The notes under the pieces are model-generated. The model saw only the letters and a list, made by a program, of their open reading frames with translations. It was not told where the DNA came from and searched no databases. From the NCBI GenBank assembly GCA_021496505.1, contig CP053031.1, positions 2,658,001 to 2,722,000 on the forward strand: a DNA stretch of 64,000 nucleotides, written 5' to 3'. Shown piece after piece: positions 5,772 to 35,615 of this stretch; the first letter of the stretch is position 1; each line of letters starts with the position of its first letter. The position numbers and the translations under genes were made by a program. The DNA is from Thermoleophilia bacterium SCSIO 60948. GTDB lineage: Bacteria; Actinomycetota; Thermoleophilia; Solirubrobacterales; 70-9.

Positions 5772-6659
5772 TCAGCGCCGTAGCGCTCGCCGCGCGAGCG
5801 TCGGGTCGTTCGTGATCACCGCGTCGACCCCGAGCGCCGCCGCGGCGCGGATGCCCCGGCGCGCATCGATCGTGTACGGCACCACGAGCTGTCCGAGCGC
5901 GTGTGCCTCTTCGACCAGCGCCGCGTCGATCGGCCAGGCCGGCGAGAACCACTCCGCGCCGAGCGACTCGGCGATCGACGGGCCGGCGTCGTTGCTCTGC
6001 GACTGCGTGAGGTACGACTGGGCGACGTTCGGCAGCACCTCGCTCGCGGCCTGGAGGTTCGAGGGCCAGAAGCTCTGTAGGACCAGGCGCCGCGGCCGGA
6101 CGTCGCTCGCGGCGATCGTCTCGGCCATCGTCGCGGCCGGCGCTCCGCTCGCGTCGAAGCCCTCCTCGCCGGGATAGTTCGCGAGCTCGATGCTCGCTGA
6201 GGCGCGCGAGCGAGCGATGAAGCGAAGCGCTCCCGCGAGCGTCGGGACCGCCGCGCGGCGGCGATCGCGCGGACCCAGCCGCCGGAACTTCACCTCCGTG
6301 CCGAGGATGTCGATCCGGCACTCAGCGAGCTCCGCGCGCGTCGTCGCGTTGACGCGTCCCTCGCAGTCGGTCGTGCGGTCGAGCGTCGGGTCGTGCATCA
6401 CGACGGGCACGCCGTCGGACGTCAGGCGGACGTCGAACTCGAGCACGAACCCCTTCTTGGCCGAGGCGCGGAATCCCGGCATCGAGCTCTCGGGGTAGGT
6501 CGGCACGCCGTCGACCACGGGGCCGCCGCGGTGCGCCTGGATCTCGGGCGGTGCGGCGGAGGCGCTCGCGGGGCCGGCGAGTGCTGCTCCGGCGGCCAAC
6601 GCCAGCACCGAACGCCCAATGCGAGATCCCATCCGCCCGTCCGGCCCGCTCCAGCGCAT
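5772..6659 (-). CDS. Secreted glycerophosphodiester phosphodiesterase
   Basis: A 295-residue GDPD-family TIM barrel that cleaves glycerophosphodiesters to glycerol 3-phosphate and an alcohol. The start is ATG 6659 because GGGGGGAGAG lies just upstream; ATG 6632 is an alternative. A signal peptide ends near ASASAA. Catalytic and metal residues are visible: the first His in QAHRGG, the Glu/Asp pair in LEFDVRLTSDG, and the second His in VMHDPTLDRTT. The C-terminal IDARRGIRAAAALGVDAVITNDP block is the standard last strand. It probably acts outside the membrane on phospholipid or teichoic-type substrates. Confidence 0.9.
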   Translation of the reverse strand: MRWSGPDGRMGSRIGRSVLALAAGAALAGPASASAAPPEIQAHRGGPVVDGVPTYPESSMPGFRASAKKGFVLEFDVRLTSDGVPVVMHDPTLDRTTDCEGRVNATTRAELAECRIDILGTEVKFRRLGPRDRRRAAVPTLAGALRFIARSRASASIELANYPGEEGFDASGAPAATMAETIAASDVRPRRLVLQSFWPSNLQAASEVLPNVAQSYLTQSQSNDAGPSIAESLGAEWFSPAWPIDAALVEEAHALGQLVVPYTIDARRGIRAAAALGVDAVITNDPTLARRALRR

Positions 6660-31902: not shown

Positions 31903-33936
31903 GTGACAAAGTCGGACGCCGTCGACGAGCTCTGCATCAACACGATCAGGACGCTTTCGATCGACGCGATCGAGAAGGCCAACTCCGGTCACCCGGGTGC
32001 CCCGATGGCGCTCGCGCCGATCTCCCACCGGCTGTTCTCGTCGCGGATGCGCCACAACCCGGCGAACCCGCGCTGGTTCGATCGCGATCGTTTCGTGCTC
32101 TCCAACGGTCACGCCTCGATGCTGCTCTACGCGACGCTCCACGTCGGCGGCTACGACCTCAGCCTCGACGACATCAAGGCGTTCCGCGAGCTCGGCAGCC
32201 CGACCGCCGGCCACCCCGAGTTCGAGGCCGCAGCCTCCTCGGGCGTCGAGGTGACGACGGGCCCACTCGGCCAGGGCTTCGCCCATTCGGTCGGGTTCGC
32301 GCTCGCCGAGCGGATGCTCGCCGCGCGCTTCAACGTCGGCGGCCACGAGCCGATCGACCACCGGACCTTCGTGATCGCCAGCGACGGCGACCTCCAGGAG
32401 GGCGTCGCCTCGGAGGCCGCCTCGCTCGCCGGCCACCTCGGCCTCGGCCGGCTCTGCGTCATCTACGACGCCAACGACATCCAGCTCGCCGGACCGACGT
32501 CGATGTCGTTCTCCGAGGACACCGCGATGCGCTTTCGCTCCTACGGATGGCACGTCGGCGACATCGGCGAGGACCTGTCGGCAGGCTCGCTCGACTCGGC
32601 GCTCGACGAGGCCGCGGCGGAGACCGAGCGGCCGTCGCTGATCATCGCCCGCACCCACATCGGCTTCGGCGCGCCGAACAAGCAGGACTCGGCGACCGCG
32701 CACGGATCGCCGCTCGGCGCGCACGAGACCCGGCTGGCCAAGCAGGCCTACGGCTGGGACCCCGACGCCCACTTCCTCGTCCCCGGCGAGGTCGACGAGC
32801 ACCGTCGCGCCGCGCGTGAGCGCGGCGAGCAGGCTGAGGCCGAGTGGGGCGAGCGCCTCGACGCCTACCGCGCCGAGCATCCCGAGCACGCGGCCGAGCT
32901 CGAGCGGATCATCGCGGGGCGGCTCCCGGAGGGCTGGCGCCTCGAACCGCCGCGCTTCGACCCGAAGGACGGCAAGGTCGCCACCCGCAAGGCCTCGCAG
33001 CGCGCGATCCAGTGGGCGGCGGGCGCGATCCCCGAGCTCGTCAGCGGGTCGGCCGACCTCGAGCCGTCGACGAACACCGAGATCGACGGCGGCGGATCCG
33101 TCGCGGCGGGATCGTATGACGGCCGCAACGTCCACTACGGCGTCCGCGAGCACGCGATGGCGGCGGCGGTCAACGGTCTGCGCCTGCACGGCCTGCGCGC
33201 GTTCGGCTCGACGTTCTTCAACTTCATCGACTACCAGAAGCCCTCGCTACGCCTCGCGGCCCTGATGGGGGTTCCGTCGATCGCCGTGTTCACGCACGAC
33301 TCGATCGGGCTCGGCGAGGACGGCCCGACCCACCAGCCGGTCGAGCAGCTCGCGATGCTGCGCGCGATGCCACACACCGAGGCGATCCGCCCGGCCGACG
33401 CCAACGAGACGGCGCTCGCCTGGGAGTACGCGCTGGCCCGCGAGGGCGGGCCGACGGCACTCGTGCTGACCCGCCAGGGACTGCCCGTGATCGACCCGGC
33501 GCTGATCCCCAGCGACGCGATCGAGCGCGGCGCCTACGTCCTGCTCGAGGAGGCCGCCGACGAGCCCGACGCGATCCTGATCGCGACCGGCTCGGAGGTC
33601 TCGCTCTGCCTCGAGGCCGCGGAGCTGCTCGAGGCGGCCGGCCTCGCGACCCGTGTGGTCAGCATGCCCTGCGCCGAGCGCTTCCTCGCCCAGGACCGCG
33701 ACTACCGCGACGACGTCCTGCCGCCGGGGTGCCGCGCCAGGGTCTCCGTCGAGGCGGGCTCGACGCTCGGCTGGGAGCGCTTCGTGACCGAGGACGGGGC
33801 GAGCATCGGGATGGACGAGTTCGGCGCCTCGGCTCCCGCCGCCGTGCTGTTCGAGCACTTCGGGTTCACGCCGGAGAAGGTTGCCGAGCGCGCGCGAGCG
33901 GTCGCCGACCGCCTCGCCGGCGTCGCGGCCGAGTAG
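31903..33936 (+). CDS. tkt: Transketolase
   Basis: A 677-residue transketolase. The TPP-binding GDG motif is ASDGDLQEGVASEA (about 165). Other blocks are NSGHPGAPMALAPI near the start, RFVLSNGHASMLLY, GPLGQGFAHSVG, the pyrimidine-domain MGVPSIAVFTHDSIGLGEDGPTH and VLTRQGLPV. It moves two-carbon units between sugar phosphates in the pentose phosphate pathway. The start is GTG 31903 with GGAGAGGATT upstream. The transaldolase gene is convergent and adjacent, so the non-oxidative branch is clustered here. Confidence 0.97.
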   Translation: MTKSDAVDELCINTIRTLSIDAIEKANSGHPGAPMALAPISHRLFSSRMRHNPANPRWFDRDRFVLSNGHASMLLYATLHVGGYDLSLDDIKAFRELGSPTAGHPEFEAAASSGVEVTTGPLGQGFAHSVGFALAERMLAARFNVGGHEPIDHRTFVIASDGDLQEGVASEAASLAGHLGLGRLCVIYDANDIQLAGPTSMSFSEDTAMRFRSYGWHVGDIGEDLSAGSLDSALDEAAAETERPSLIIARTHIGFGAPNKQDSATAHGSPLGAHETRLAKQAYGWDPDAHFLVPGEVDEHRRAARERGEQAEAEWGERLDAYRAEHPEHAAELERIIAGRLPEGWRLEPPRFDPKDGKVATRKASQRAIQWAAGAIPELVSGSADLEPSTNTEIDGGGSVAAGSYDGRNVHYGVREHAMAAAVNGLRLHGLRAFGSTFFNFIDYQKPSLRLAALMGVPSIAVFTHDSIGLGEDGPTHQPVEQLAMLRAMPHTEAIRPADANETALAWEYALAREGGPTALVLTRQGLPVIDPALIPSDAIERGAYVLLEEAADEPDAILIATGSEVSLCLEAAELLEAAGLATRVVSMPCAERFLAQDRDYRDDVLPPGCRARVSVEAGSTLGWERFVTEDGASIGMDEFGASAPAAVLFEHFGFTPEKVAERARAVADRLAGVAAE

Positions 33937-34073
33937 CCGCCGCGGCCGAAGGGGCGCCCGCTTCGGATGGCGTCCCGCTCGCCGCCCTGCGACGGATGCG
34001 AAACAGGGCCCTGGTTGCACCGAGGGAGCGGGTCAGAAGGCTCCGAGGGATCCGATCTGGTCTCGCGCCGACA

Positions 34074-34120
34074 CCGCCGTCGGGGTTGGCGGTCGTATTG
34101 CCTGCAAACCCCGACGGCGG
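34074..34120. repeat. Hairpin repeat copy 1 (14-bp stem, 19-nt loop)
   Basis: CCGCCGTCGGGGTT (34074-34087) pairs exactly with AACCCCGACGGCGG (34107-34120). The loop contains GTCGTATTGCCTGCA, shared with copy 2. Confidence 0.8.
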
Positions 34121-34141
34121 CGGCTGGCCTGGTCCTCGCCA

Positions 34142-34176
34142 TCGGGGTTGGCTGTCGTATTGCCTGCAAACCCCGA
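34142..34176. repeat. Hairpin repeat copy 2 (8-bp stem, same loop)
   Basis: TCGGGGTT (34142-34149) pairs with AACCCCGA (34169-34176). Its 19-nt loop differs from copy 1 at one base. The two copies start about 62-68 bases apart. Confidence 0.8.
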
Positions 34177-34331
34177 CCGCGGTTCGAGGTCCGGGGTCCG
34201 AAGGCGCGCTTCGGCCCCCACCCTTTGCGGCCTGTCGGCCTCGGCCGCCGGCGCATGGGTTGCATCGTGCTGCGGACCCCGACCGTCGCCCGCCAGAGCC
34301 CACTGACGGCGAGGCAAAGGAGCGTTGAGAG

Positions 34332-35435
34332 TTAAGCCGGCGCGAGCGCGCTGCGCTTGACGTCGAGCTGGGCGAGCAGGTCGTCCATCGACGCCTCGAA
34401 CTTCGCCACGCCGTCGCGCTCGAGGTGCTCGGCGACATCGGCGAGGTCGACTCCGGCGGCCGCGATCTCCTCGACGTCGCGCCGCGCCCCTTCCGGGTCG
34501 GCATCGAGCGTCCGCGCGACCTCGCCGTGGTCGGCGAACGCGCGCAGCGTCTCGAGCGGCATCGTGTTGACGGTGTTCGGCCCGATCAGCTGCTCGACGT
34601 AGAGGACGTCGCTGTAGGCGGGGTCCTTGGTCGAGGTCGACGCCCACAGACAGCGCTGCGGGGTCGCGCCGCGGGCCGCCAGCGCCTCCCAGCGCGGACC
34701 GGAGAAGAGCTCGCGATAGGCGTCGTAGGCCAGCCGCGCGTTGGCGATCGCGAGCCGGCCCCGCAGGTCGTCGCGGCCCAGCTCCGCCAGGCGCCGGTCG
34801 CCCTCGGTGTCGACACGAGAGATGAAGAAGGAAGCCACCGAGGCGACGGAGGCGAGCTCCTCGCCGCGCTCCGCCCGTTGCTCGAGCCCGCGGACGTAGG
34901 CCTCGGCGACCTCGCGGTAGCGCTCGACACCGAAGATGAGCGTCACGTTGACCGGGATCCCGGCCGCGATCGAGCGCTCGACCGCCGGCAGGCCCTCACG
35001 CGTCGCGGGGATCTTGATCAGCAGGTTCGGCCGCCCGACCCACTCGTGCAGCCGCTGCGCCTCCTCGCCGGTCGCCTCCGTGTCGTGCGCGAACCGCGGG
35101 TCGACCTCCCAGGAGACATAGCCGTCGAGGCCGCCACCGTCGTCGTGGACGCGGCGCATCAGATCGCAGGCGGCGACGATGTCGCGCTGCGCGAGCTCGT
35201 AGAAGACCTCCTTGACGTCGTCGGTCCGCGCCGCGACGTCGCGCAGCTGCTCGTCGTAGGAGTGGCCCTCGGCCATCGCCTTCTGGAAGATCGTCGGGTT
35301 CGAGGTCACGCCGACGACGGCGTCGCGCTCGACCATCCCCTCGAGCTCGCCGGACTCGATCATCTCGCGCGAGAGCAGGTCGATCCAGACGCTCTGCCCG
35401 GCGGCGGACAACGAGTGCAGGCGGCTTTCGGGCAT
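34332..35435 (-). CDS. tal: Transaldolase
   Basis: A 367-residue transaldolase of the longer, TIM-barrel actinobacterial/cyanobacterial type. AAGGAGT lies just upstream of ATG 35435 (MPESRLHSL), which decides the start over the longer frame. Blocks are GQSVWIDLLSREMIESGELE near the start, VGVTSNPTIFQKAM, and PNLLIKIPATREGLPAV, which contains the Schiff-base Lys. It moves dihydroxyacetone units between fructose 6-phosphate and erythrose 4-phosphate. It converges with transketolase. Confidence 0.95.
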   Translation of the reverse strand: MPESRLHSLSAAGQSVWIDLLSREMIESGELEGMVERDAVVGVTSNPTIFQKAMAEGHSYDEQLRDVAARTDDVKEVFYELAQRDIVAACDLMRRVHDDGGGLDGYVSWEVDPRFAHDTEATGEEAQRLHEWVGRPNLLIKIPATREGLPAVERSIAAGIPVNVTLIFGVERYREVAEAYVRGLEQRAERGEELASVASVASFFISRVDTEGDRRLAELGRDDLRGRLAIANARLAYDAYRELFSGPRWEALAARGATPQRCLWASTSTKDPAYSDVLYVEQLIGPNTVNTMPLETLRAFADHGEVARTLDADPEGARRDVEEIAAAGVDLADVAEHLERDGVAKFEASMDDLLAQLDVKRSALAPA

Positions 35436-35615
35436 CGGTACTCCTTCGCGGATCGCGGTCTCGGTGAGCCGGGTCGGTCGCAACCGACTCTGAACAGACG
35501 GCCCGCCCGGCGTCAACCCTCACGATGCCGGATACCCCGGATGTTGCGAGCCCCACGTCCGCCGACGCCGGGCCCGTCGAGTTTTCTGCCTCCCGCCGCG
35601 GTTAGTTGCGCGTCC

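Follow-up and report, generated by a model that had tools for sequence, protein, structure and literature searches.

Two similar hairpins between the transketolase (tkt) and transaldolase (tal) genes of Thermoleophilia bacterium SCSIO 60948 are scattered copies of a DNA palindrome. By our reading, the same palindrome carries the start codon of a predicted DNA-cutting gene elsewhere in this genome. Relatives of this gene, which encodes an AbiEi-like domain joined to a DUF559 domain, repeatedly have palindromes of their own at their ends. These results point to an apparently undescribed kind of bacterial repeat-plus-nuclease system. The association between gene and palindrome is strong, whereas the roles of the palindrome as operator or target, and its mobility, are inferred from sequence.

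Results

Two palindromic units lie between tkt and tal

The window (the whole stretch of 64,000 nt that was analysed) contains two palindromic units at 34074-34120 and 34136-34182, both with the canonical orientation on the - strand. The core of unit 1 is TCGGGGTT-GGCGGTCGTATTGCCTGCA-AACCCCGA (35 nt, 34080-34114) and that of unit 2 is TCGGGGTT-GGCTGTCGTATTGCCTGCA-AACCCCGA (35 nt, 34142-34176). An earlier note on this DNA had described two hairpins with stems of different length and 19-nt loops that are identical except for one base, and this observation was confirmed. The 19-nt inner parts differ at one base, and the outer stem of unit 1 is longer than that of unit 2 (arms 34074-34090 and 34104-34120, 94% complementary). 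However, the direct repeat is longer: it covers 46 nt (34075-34120 and 34137-34182) with 93% identity and a start-to-start distance of 62 nt. Moreover, the loop is itself partly palindromic. The cores are separated by a 27-nt spacer (34115-34141). Pfam searches assigned the flanking convergent genes to transketolase (31903-33936, + strand) and transaldolase (34332-35516, - strand; its start codon is uncertain).

We tested whether the repeat could arise by chance. The exact 15-mer occurs twice in the window, against 0.71 expected for matches with up to 3 mismatches. The region folds better than dinucleotide shuffles on both strands (z -3.8 and -4.6). No terminator-like site (a stem-loop followed by a T run) and no sigma-70-like site was found in 33900-34400. 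In a search of 33500-34800 against Rfam, the best match over the units scored 19.2 bits against a gathering score of 80, and thus no Rfam family fits.

The genome contains exactly 12 units

The assembly is one contig of 3.42 Mb (97.65% complete). A DNA search and a covariance model of the unit (R1) gave exactly 12 units in 6 loci: 420575 and 420637; 507469 (single); 594222 and 594284; 2313383 and 2313445; 2643565, 2643628 and 2643690; and 2692080 and 2692142 (the window; 73.6 bits for unit 1 and 68.5 bits for unit 2). The 12 units score 55-74 bits and the next candidate scores 19 bits. Therefore, the outcome that the note had named as fatal to its idea, the absence of other copies, did not occur: there are 10 further copies in 5 other intergenic loci. 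Neighbouring units start 62, 62, 62, 63, 62 and 62 nt apart, where the 63 is caused by a unit with one extra base. The spacers differ in sequence, and the two units of a pair may be direct or inverted. The 12 units all lie between predicted genes by our reading, although one locus (2313383) has an uncertain neighbour start. The flanking genes are DUF559/rpoB, gnd-like/cyclase, carboxyl transferase/BKACE, an unassigned ORF/sulphur transporter, GH3/PadR and tkt/tal. Across the 12 units the arms are nearly invariant and there is no excess of compensatory change, so within this genome conservation is of sequence and not only of pairing. A shared CACCGAGGGAG in the left flanks of two loci looked like an outer inverted repeat, but it is absent from the other four loci. 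A CRISPR array was excluded because there are only 1-3 units per locus at 6 separate loci, the units are diverged and their orientation is direct or inverted.

The earlier note had proposed a REP/BIME-like element, and had suggested a search for a RAYT/REP-type transposase. We searched for the Y1 transposase (PF01797). There was no match in this genome (hereafter G000) or in G028, G055 and G059, three relatives that carry hairpins of the same kind, whereas the same search gave matches in 6 of 14 named control genomes. Furthermore, neither a GTAG nor a CGTC tag is constant at the foot of the 12 aligned units by eye. Thus, the interpretation in the note was partly supported. It was right that this is a dispersed repeat whose inner part is conserved for a reason other than termination, and a protein-binding site or a mobile hairpin, both of which the note had listed, remains the best class of explanation. 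The REP/RAYT reading fails on its defining enzyme, at least for a gene encoded in this assembly.

Relatives carry hairpins with other arms

In 60 relatives, the exact arms are absent as a family. When R1 was run over 399 genomes of the class, it drew in G028 and G055, whose hairpins have different arms but a similar inner core. We then built two models with artificial random outer stems (R2 and R3), so that any complementary arms can score and only pairing and the inner core count. R3 was made from cores that include ones next to DUF559 genes (G000 and G028). R2 found only two weak hits outside G000 in 38 near relatives, but nine places in G028 and six in G055. R3 gave hits at E<=0.003 in 20 of 399 genomes; by eye, some of these lie in coding sequence and may be chance. 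In G055, at least six near-identical copies (contig:position C2:333693, C20:59823, C20:85093, C22:26984, C25:113603 and C25:59463) have a constant C.C mismatch and repeated flanking sequence, and no matching DUF559 gene was found.

A pattern scan of public genomes gave 5 records with the same arm sequence. Two of them, in Pseudomonas citronellolis (NZ_JARJLT010000356.1, locus L066, about 1163-1263) and Stutzerimonas stutzeri (NZ_JAMOIE010000008.1, locus L067, about 2662-2763), contain tandem hairpins with the TCGGGGTT/AACCCCGA arms that start 64-65 nt apart. In L067 these lie just upstream of a ParA-like ORF, near ParA/ParB-like ORFs, by eye. Because the inner parts differ from those in the window, we treat them as unrelated. 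The same scan of viral contigs found nothing. In an uncultured Nocardioides (NZ_CANLDB010000007.1, locus L064, about 6100-6320) there is a cluster of GGGGTTTC.../...GAAACCCC palindromes with no DUF559 gene within the 8 kb examined.

One pair stands in front of a DUF559 gene

The pair at 420575/420637 stands in front of a gene that lies in antisense between rplL and rpoB (G000:C1:419573-420592, - strand). Its product has the DUF559 and MTES_1575 (Vsr-type) nuclease domains: DUF559 is over its curated cut-off and MTES_1575 is not. By our in-frame reading, the ATG of this gene falls in the loop of the unit at 420575. The gene has the unit only on its 5' side; the hairpin at its stop is a different sequence. 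In 19 relatives where rplL is in view, rplL and the matched rpoB start lie 220-1402 nt apart (12 of them 322 or less), against 1463 nt here. None of the 29 relatives' loci examined holds a DUF559 gene, so the gene is an addition at this place. In five of the 19 (G003, G010, G037, G046 and G049) the gap is enlarged to 733-1402 nt without DUF559, against 220-433 nt in the other 14; these are other insertions at this place.

DUF559 genes are associated with palindromes

DUF559 occurs in 22 of 26 genomes searched. We chose 80 of these genes and analysed stretches of up to 10 kb around them (742 kb in total). It should be mentioned that the sample is weighted: 75 of the 80 come from genomes with an R3 hairpin hit and 5 from two genomes without (G002 and G003). 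R3 gave 13 distinct places at E<=1, of which 12 lie at an end of the DUF559 gene (within about 190 nt of the start, or at the stop) and one lies elsewhere. When genomes used in making R3 were left out, this was 8 of 9.

We then used tests that do not depend on any model. As controls, we used any open frames of similar length in the same stretches, which are not curated genes. The same repeat was present at both ends in 24 of 76 DUF559 genes, against 7 of 412 control ORFs (p 1.5e-15). With different flank limits and at score 16, the both-end test gave 13 of 72 against 1 of 268 for direct repeats and 10 of 72 against 1 of 268 for inverted repeats. Of the 24 end repeats, 14 are palindromes at p<=0.01 although symmetry was not asked for. 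A start codon was at the centre of a hairpin in 20 of 80 genes, against 5 of 443 (p 1.5e-13). Together, 43 of the 80 genes show at least one of the three signs and 37 show none. A relative on a Tsukamurella plasmid has no end palindromes.

Relatives with palindromes at both ends include the genes in the loci L211 and L283. In L211, the palindrome 3' of the DUF559 gene sits inside a longer perfect stem (score 35), as if it had entered the tip of an existing hairpin. Upstream of the DUF559 genes in L211, L212, L214, L221 and L226 (one genus, g10) there is a shared stretch like GTTGCACAA-TGTCACACCT-GAGCCAC-TGTGAGCA, possibly a conserved promoter between the palindrome and the gene. Three DUF559 genes in different genera, in L205 (G000), L228 (G029) and L240 (G035), lie beside the same neighbour gene end, so these are either old insertions or a favoured site. 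Similarity of the proteins gave only a weak correlation with similarity of the end sequences (rho 0.18 over 946 pairs). Because this value is inflated by shared neighbour genes, we do not use it.

Dispersed hairpins match a DUF559 gene of their own genome

We tested whether solo (gene-free) hairpins resemble the ends of a DUF559 gene of the same genome. A chosen set of 29 dispersed hairpins from 14 genomes was used (7 of the 12 G000 units, 7 from G028 and the rest one or two per genome). In 20 of 29 cases the best match was a DUF559 gene of the same genome (1.94 expected from the numbers of loci); counted by genome, this was 8 of 14. All 7 G000 units tested point to the rplL-rpoB gene. For the other 9 hairpins the best-matching gene end is in another genome, and for G055, G059 and G049 no cognate gene was found. 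The solo loci hold no DUF559 remnants, so they are not obviously vacated sites.

The protein joins an AbiEi-like domain to a predicted nuclease domain

Twenty-nine proteins align over about 310 positions, and L33, A75, E217, P232, D244, E255, D257 and H261 are invariant in 29 of 29. Every member matches DUF559, 21 match Pfam AbiEi_4 and all 29 match PADLOC AbiEi models. The family profile finds PDB 3hrl 'endonuclease-like protein' (1.6e-10) and 3r3p 'mobile intron protein' (0.0072). The latter structure is I-Bth0305I. I-Bth0305I is an EDxHD homing endonuclease, which dimerises on a target of nearly 60 bp (PMC3943268). AbiEi of Streptococcus agalactiae binds 11-bp inverted repeats, TGTTGCTTTTA-N27-TAAAAGCAACA, and represses its own promoter (PMC3985639), and the M. 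tuberculosis homologue also binds inverted repeats (PMC7319586). The protein was not found on phages and was found only once on plasmids in our searches.

Discussion

We propose that the two hairpins in the window are solo copies of a double-stranded DNA palindrome, which is the cognate site for binding or cutting by the AbiEi-DUF559 protein encoded between rplL and rpoB. We give this reading a probability of about 0.6. In this view, the AbiEi-like part, as a dimer, probably reads the arms, which differ between DUF559 genes but are shared by a gene and its solo copies. The DUF559 part, a Vsr/EDxHD-type nuclease by its sequence, probably acts at the shared TATR-like centre, or this centre may be the place where the start codon must lie. 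At its own gene the palindrome covers or adjoins the start codon, so binding would shut the gene off. At many relatives a second copy covers or follows the stop codon, so the gene is a discrete unit of about 1 kb bounded by its own site, which could move or be lost between its repeats. Copies would spread to intergenic places, in this genome nearly always as pairs 62 bp apart. This spacing is about six helical turns and suits two bound dimers on one face of the helix. The 12 units and their spacing, the association of gene and palindrome, the match of solo copies to their own genome, the presence of the gene in an intergenic space that lacks it in relatives and the invariant nuclease-like residues are shown by our analysis. 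In contrast, binding, autoregulation, cutting and movement are inferred.

A further, tentative possibility is a new class of selfish element, whose gene starts inside its own palindromic target and ends at a second copy. The protein would repress itself through the palindrome and cut gene-free copies at the TATR-like centre, so that the gene or the palindrome is copied into the break. Solo palindromes such as the pair in the window would then be unoccupied or vacated target sites. Such an element would be the equivalent of REP/RAYT with a PD-(D/E)XK-type nuclease in place of the HUH transposase.

Of the alternatives, the one that survives best, although we consider it unlikely, is that the palindromes are only operators. 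In this case, they would be repressor sites of the AbiEi-like domain, the dispersed pairs would form a small regulon (rpoB, tkt/tal, carboxylase/BKACE, gnd, PadR and transporter genes) and the nuclease domain would have another job such as mismatch repair or defence. The repression by AbiEi homologues through inverted repeats, and the constant 62-nt spacing, which suits cooperative binding, are consistent with this idea. Moreover, a DUF559 protein of Caulobacter, VsrA, is linked to a DNA damage response and predicted mismatch repair (PMC12907096). The idea explains the start-side copy and the spacing. However, the pair in the window lies between the 3' ends of two genes, where a promoter operator is not expected, and the scan found no promoter-like site there. 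The idea also does not explain a second copy at the stop codon or the several identical solo copies with shared flanks in G055.

It is less likely that the palindromes are independent mobile hairpins or fragile sites and that DUF559 genes are passengers, which insert at or near them. Solo copies outnumber gene copies in G000, G028 and G055, and the solo loci have no DUF559 remnants. However, the arms are specific to each DUF559 gene and match the solo copies of the same genome, and a passenger would not be placed with its start codon at the palindrome centre, as in 20 of 80 genes. Bidirectional terminators or RNA-stabilising hairpins that happen to share a loop are very unlikely. Although these are strong hairpins after gene ends, and the pair in the window is between convergent genes, no terminator-like site was found in 33900-34400 and compensatory change is not in excess among the 12 units. 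The nearly identical inner sequence, the fixed spacing and a pair in front of DUF559 and rpoB are not needed for termination, and by our reading one such hairpin in G028 is followed by a separate terminator-like hairpin with a T run. Least likely is a REP/BIME element mobilised by a RAYT: the palindromes are dispersed, intergenic and paired, with a cognate gene flanked by copies, but no PF01797 match is encoded in this assembly, there are 12 copies rather than the >100 per genome usual for REPs (PMC2817692) and the partner gene belongs to a different family.

DUF559 and AbiEi-DUF559 genes are common in this bacterial class, and DUF559 is still named 'protein of unknown function' in Pfam. If many of these genes are bounded by their own palindromes and have dispersed cognate sites, they gain a testable function (site-specific nuclease or self-regulator), an easy way to predict the DNA target of each protein from its own flanks and possibly a place as a new family of mobile elements. 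Many gene-arm pairs could also serve to read out how an AbiEi-type domain specifies DNA. We found no paper that links DUF559 genes to palindromic repeats among the open-access literature searched, which is not proof of absence. The Caulobacter paper on VsrA names a DUF559 domain but does not mention palindromes, hairpins or inverted repeats (PMC12907096).

Comparison with known systems

The AbiE type IV toxin-antitoxin system shares with the present proteins the AbiEi-like N-terminal domain. AbiEi has an inverted-repeat operator, and the G000 gene has a palindromic site at its start, for which binding is inferred. However, the present proteins have a C-terminal nuclease domain instead of the antitoxin domain, there is no AbiEii toxin (nucleotidyltransferase) gene beside the G000 gene, whose neighbours are rplL and rpoB, and there are dispersed extra sites. 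The EDxHD (Vsr-like) homing endonucleases of the I-Bth0305I type share the nuclease domain, including the invariant E, D, E-x-D and H residues. In contrast to these enzymes, there is no intron, an AbiEi-like N-terminal part replaces the DNA-binding modules of the homing endonuclease and the gene is bounded by palindromes; homing would be an inference. The REPtrons and TIRtrons, in which RAYT or TIRYT genes are flanked by palindromic or inverted repeats, have the same plan: gene-specific repeats at one or both ends of a single gene, sometimes overlapping its start or stop, and dispersed solo copies, often as pairs, in intergenic DNA (PMC3733652). Here, the enzyme is an AbiEi-DUF559 nuclease by prediction and not a Y1 HUH tyrosine transposase, the copy number is low (12 units in G000) and there is a central TATR-like core rather than a GTAG/CGTC tag. 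Because the partner enzyme excludes membership of REP/RAYT and no other family fits, we regard the system as new in kind, although a cautious reader may call it a REPtron-like variant built on an unrelated enzyme.
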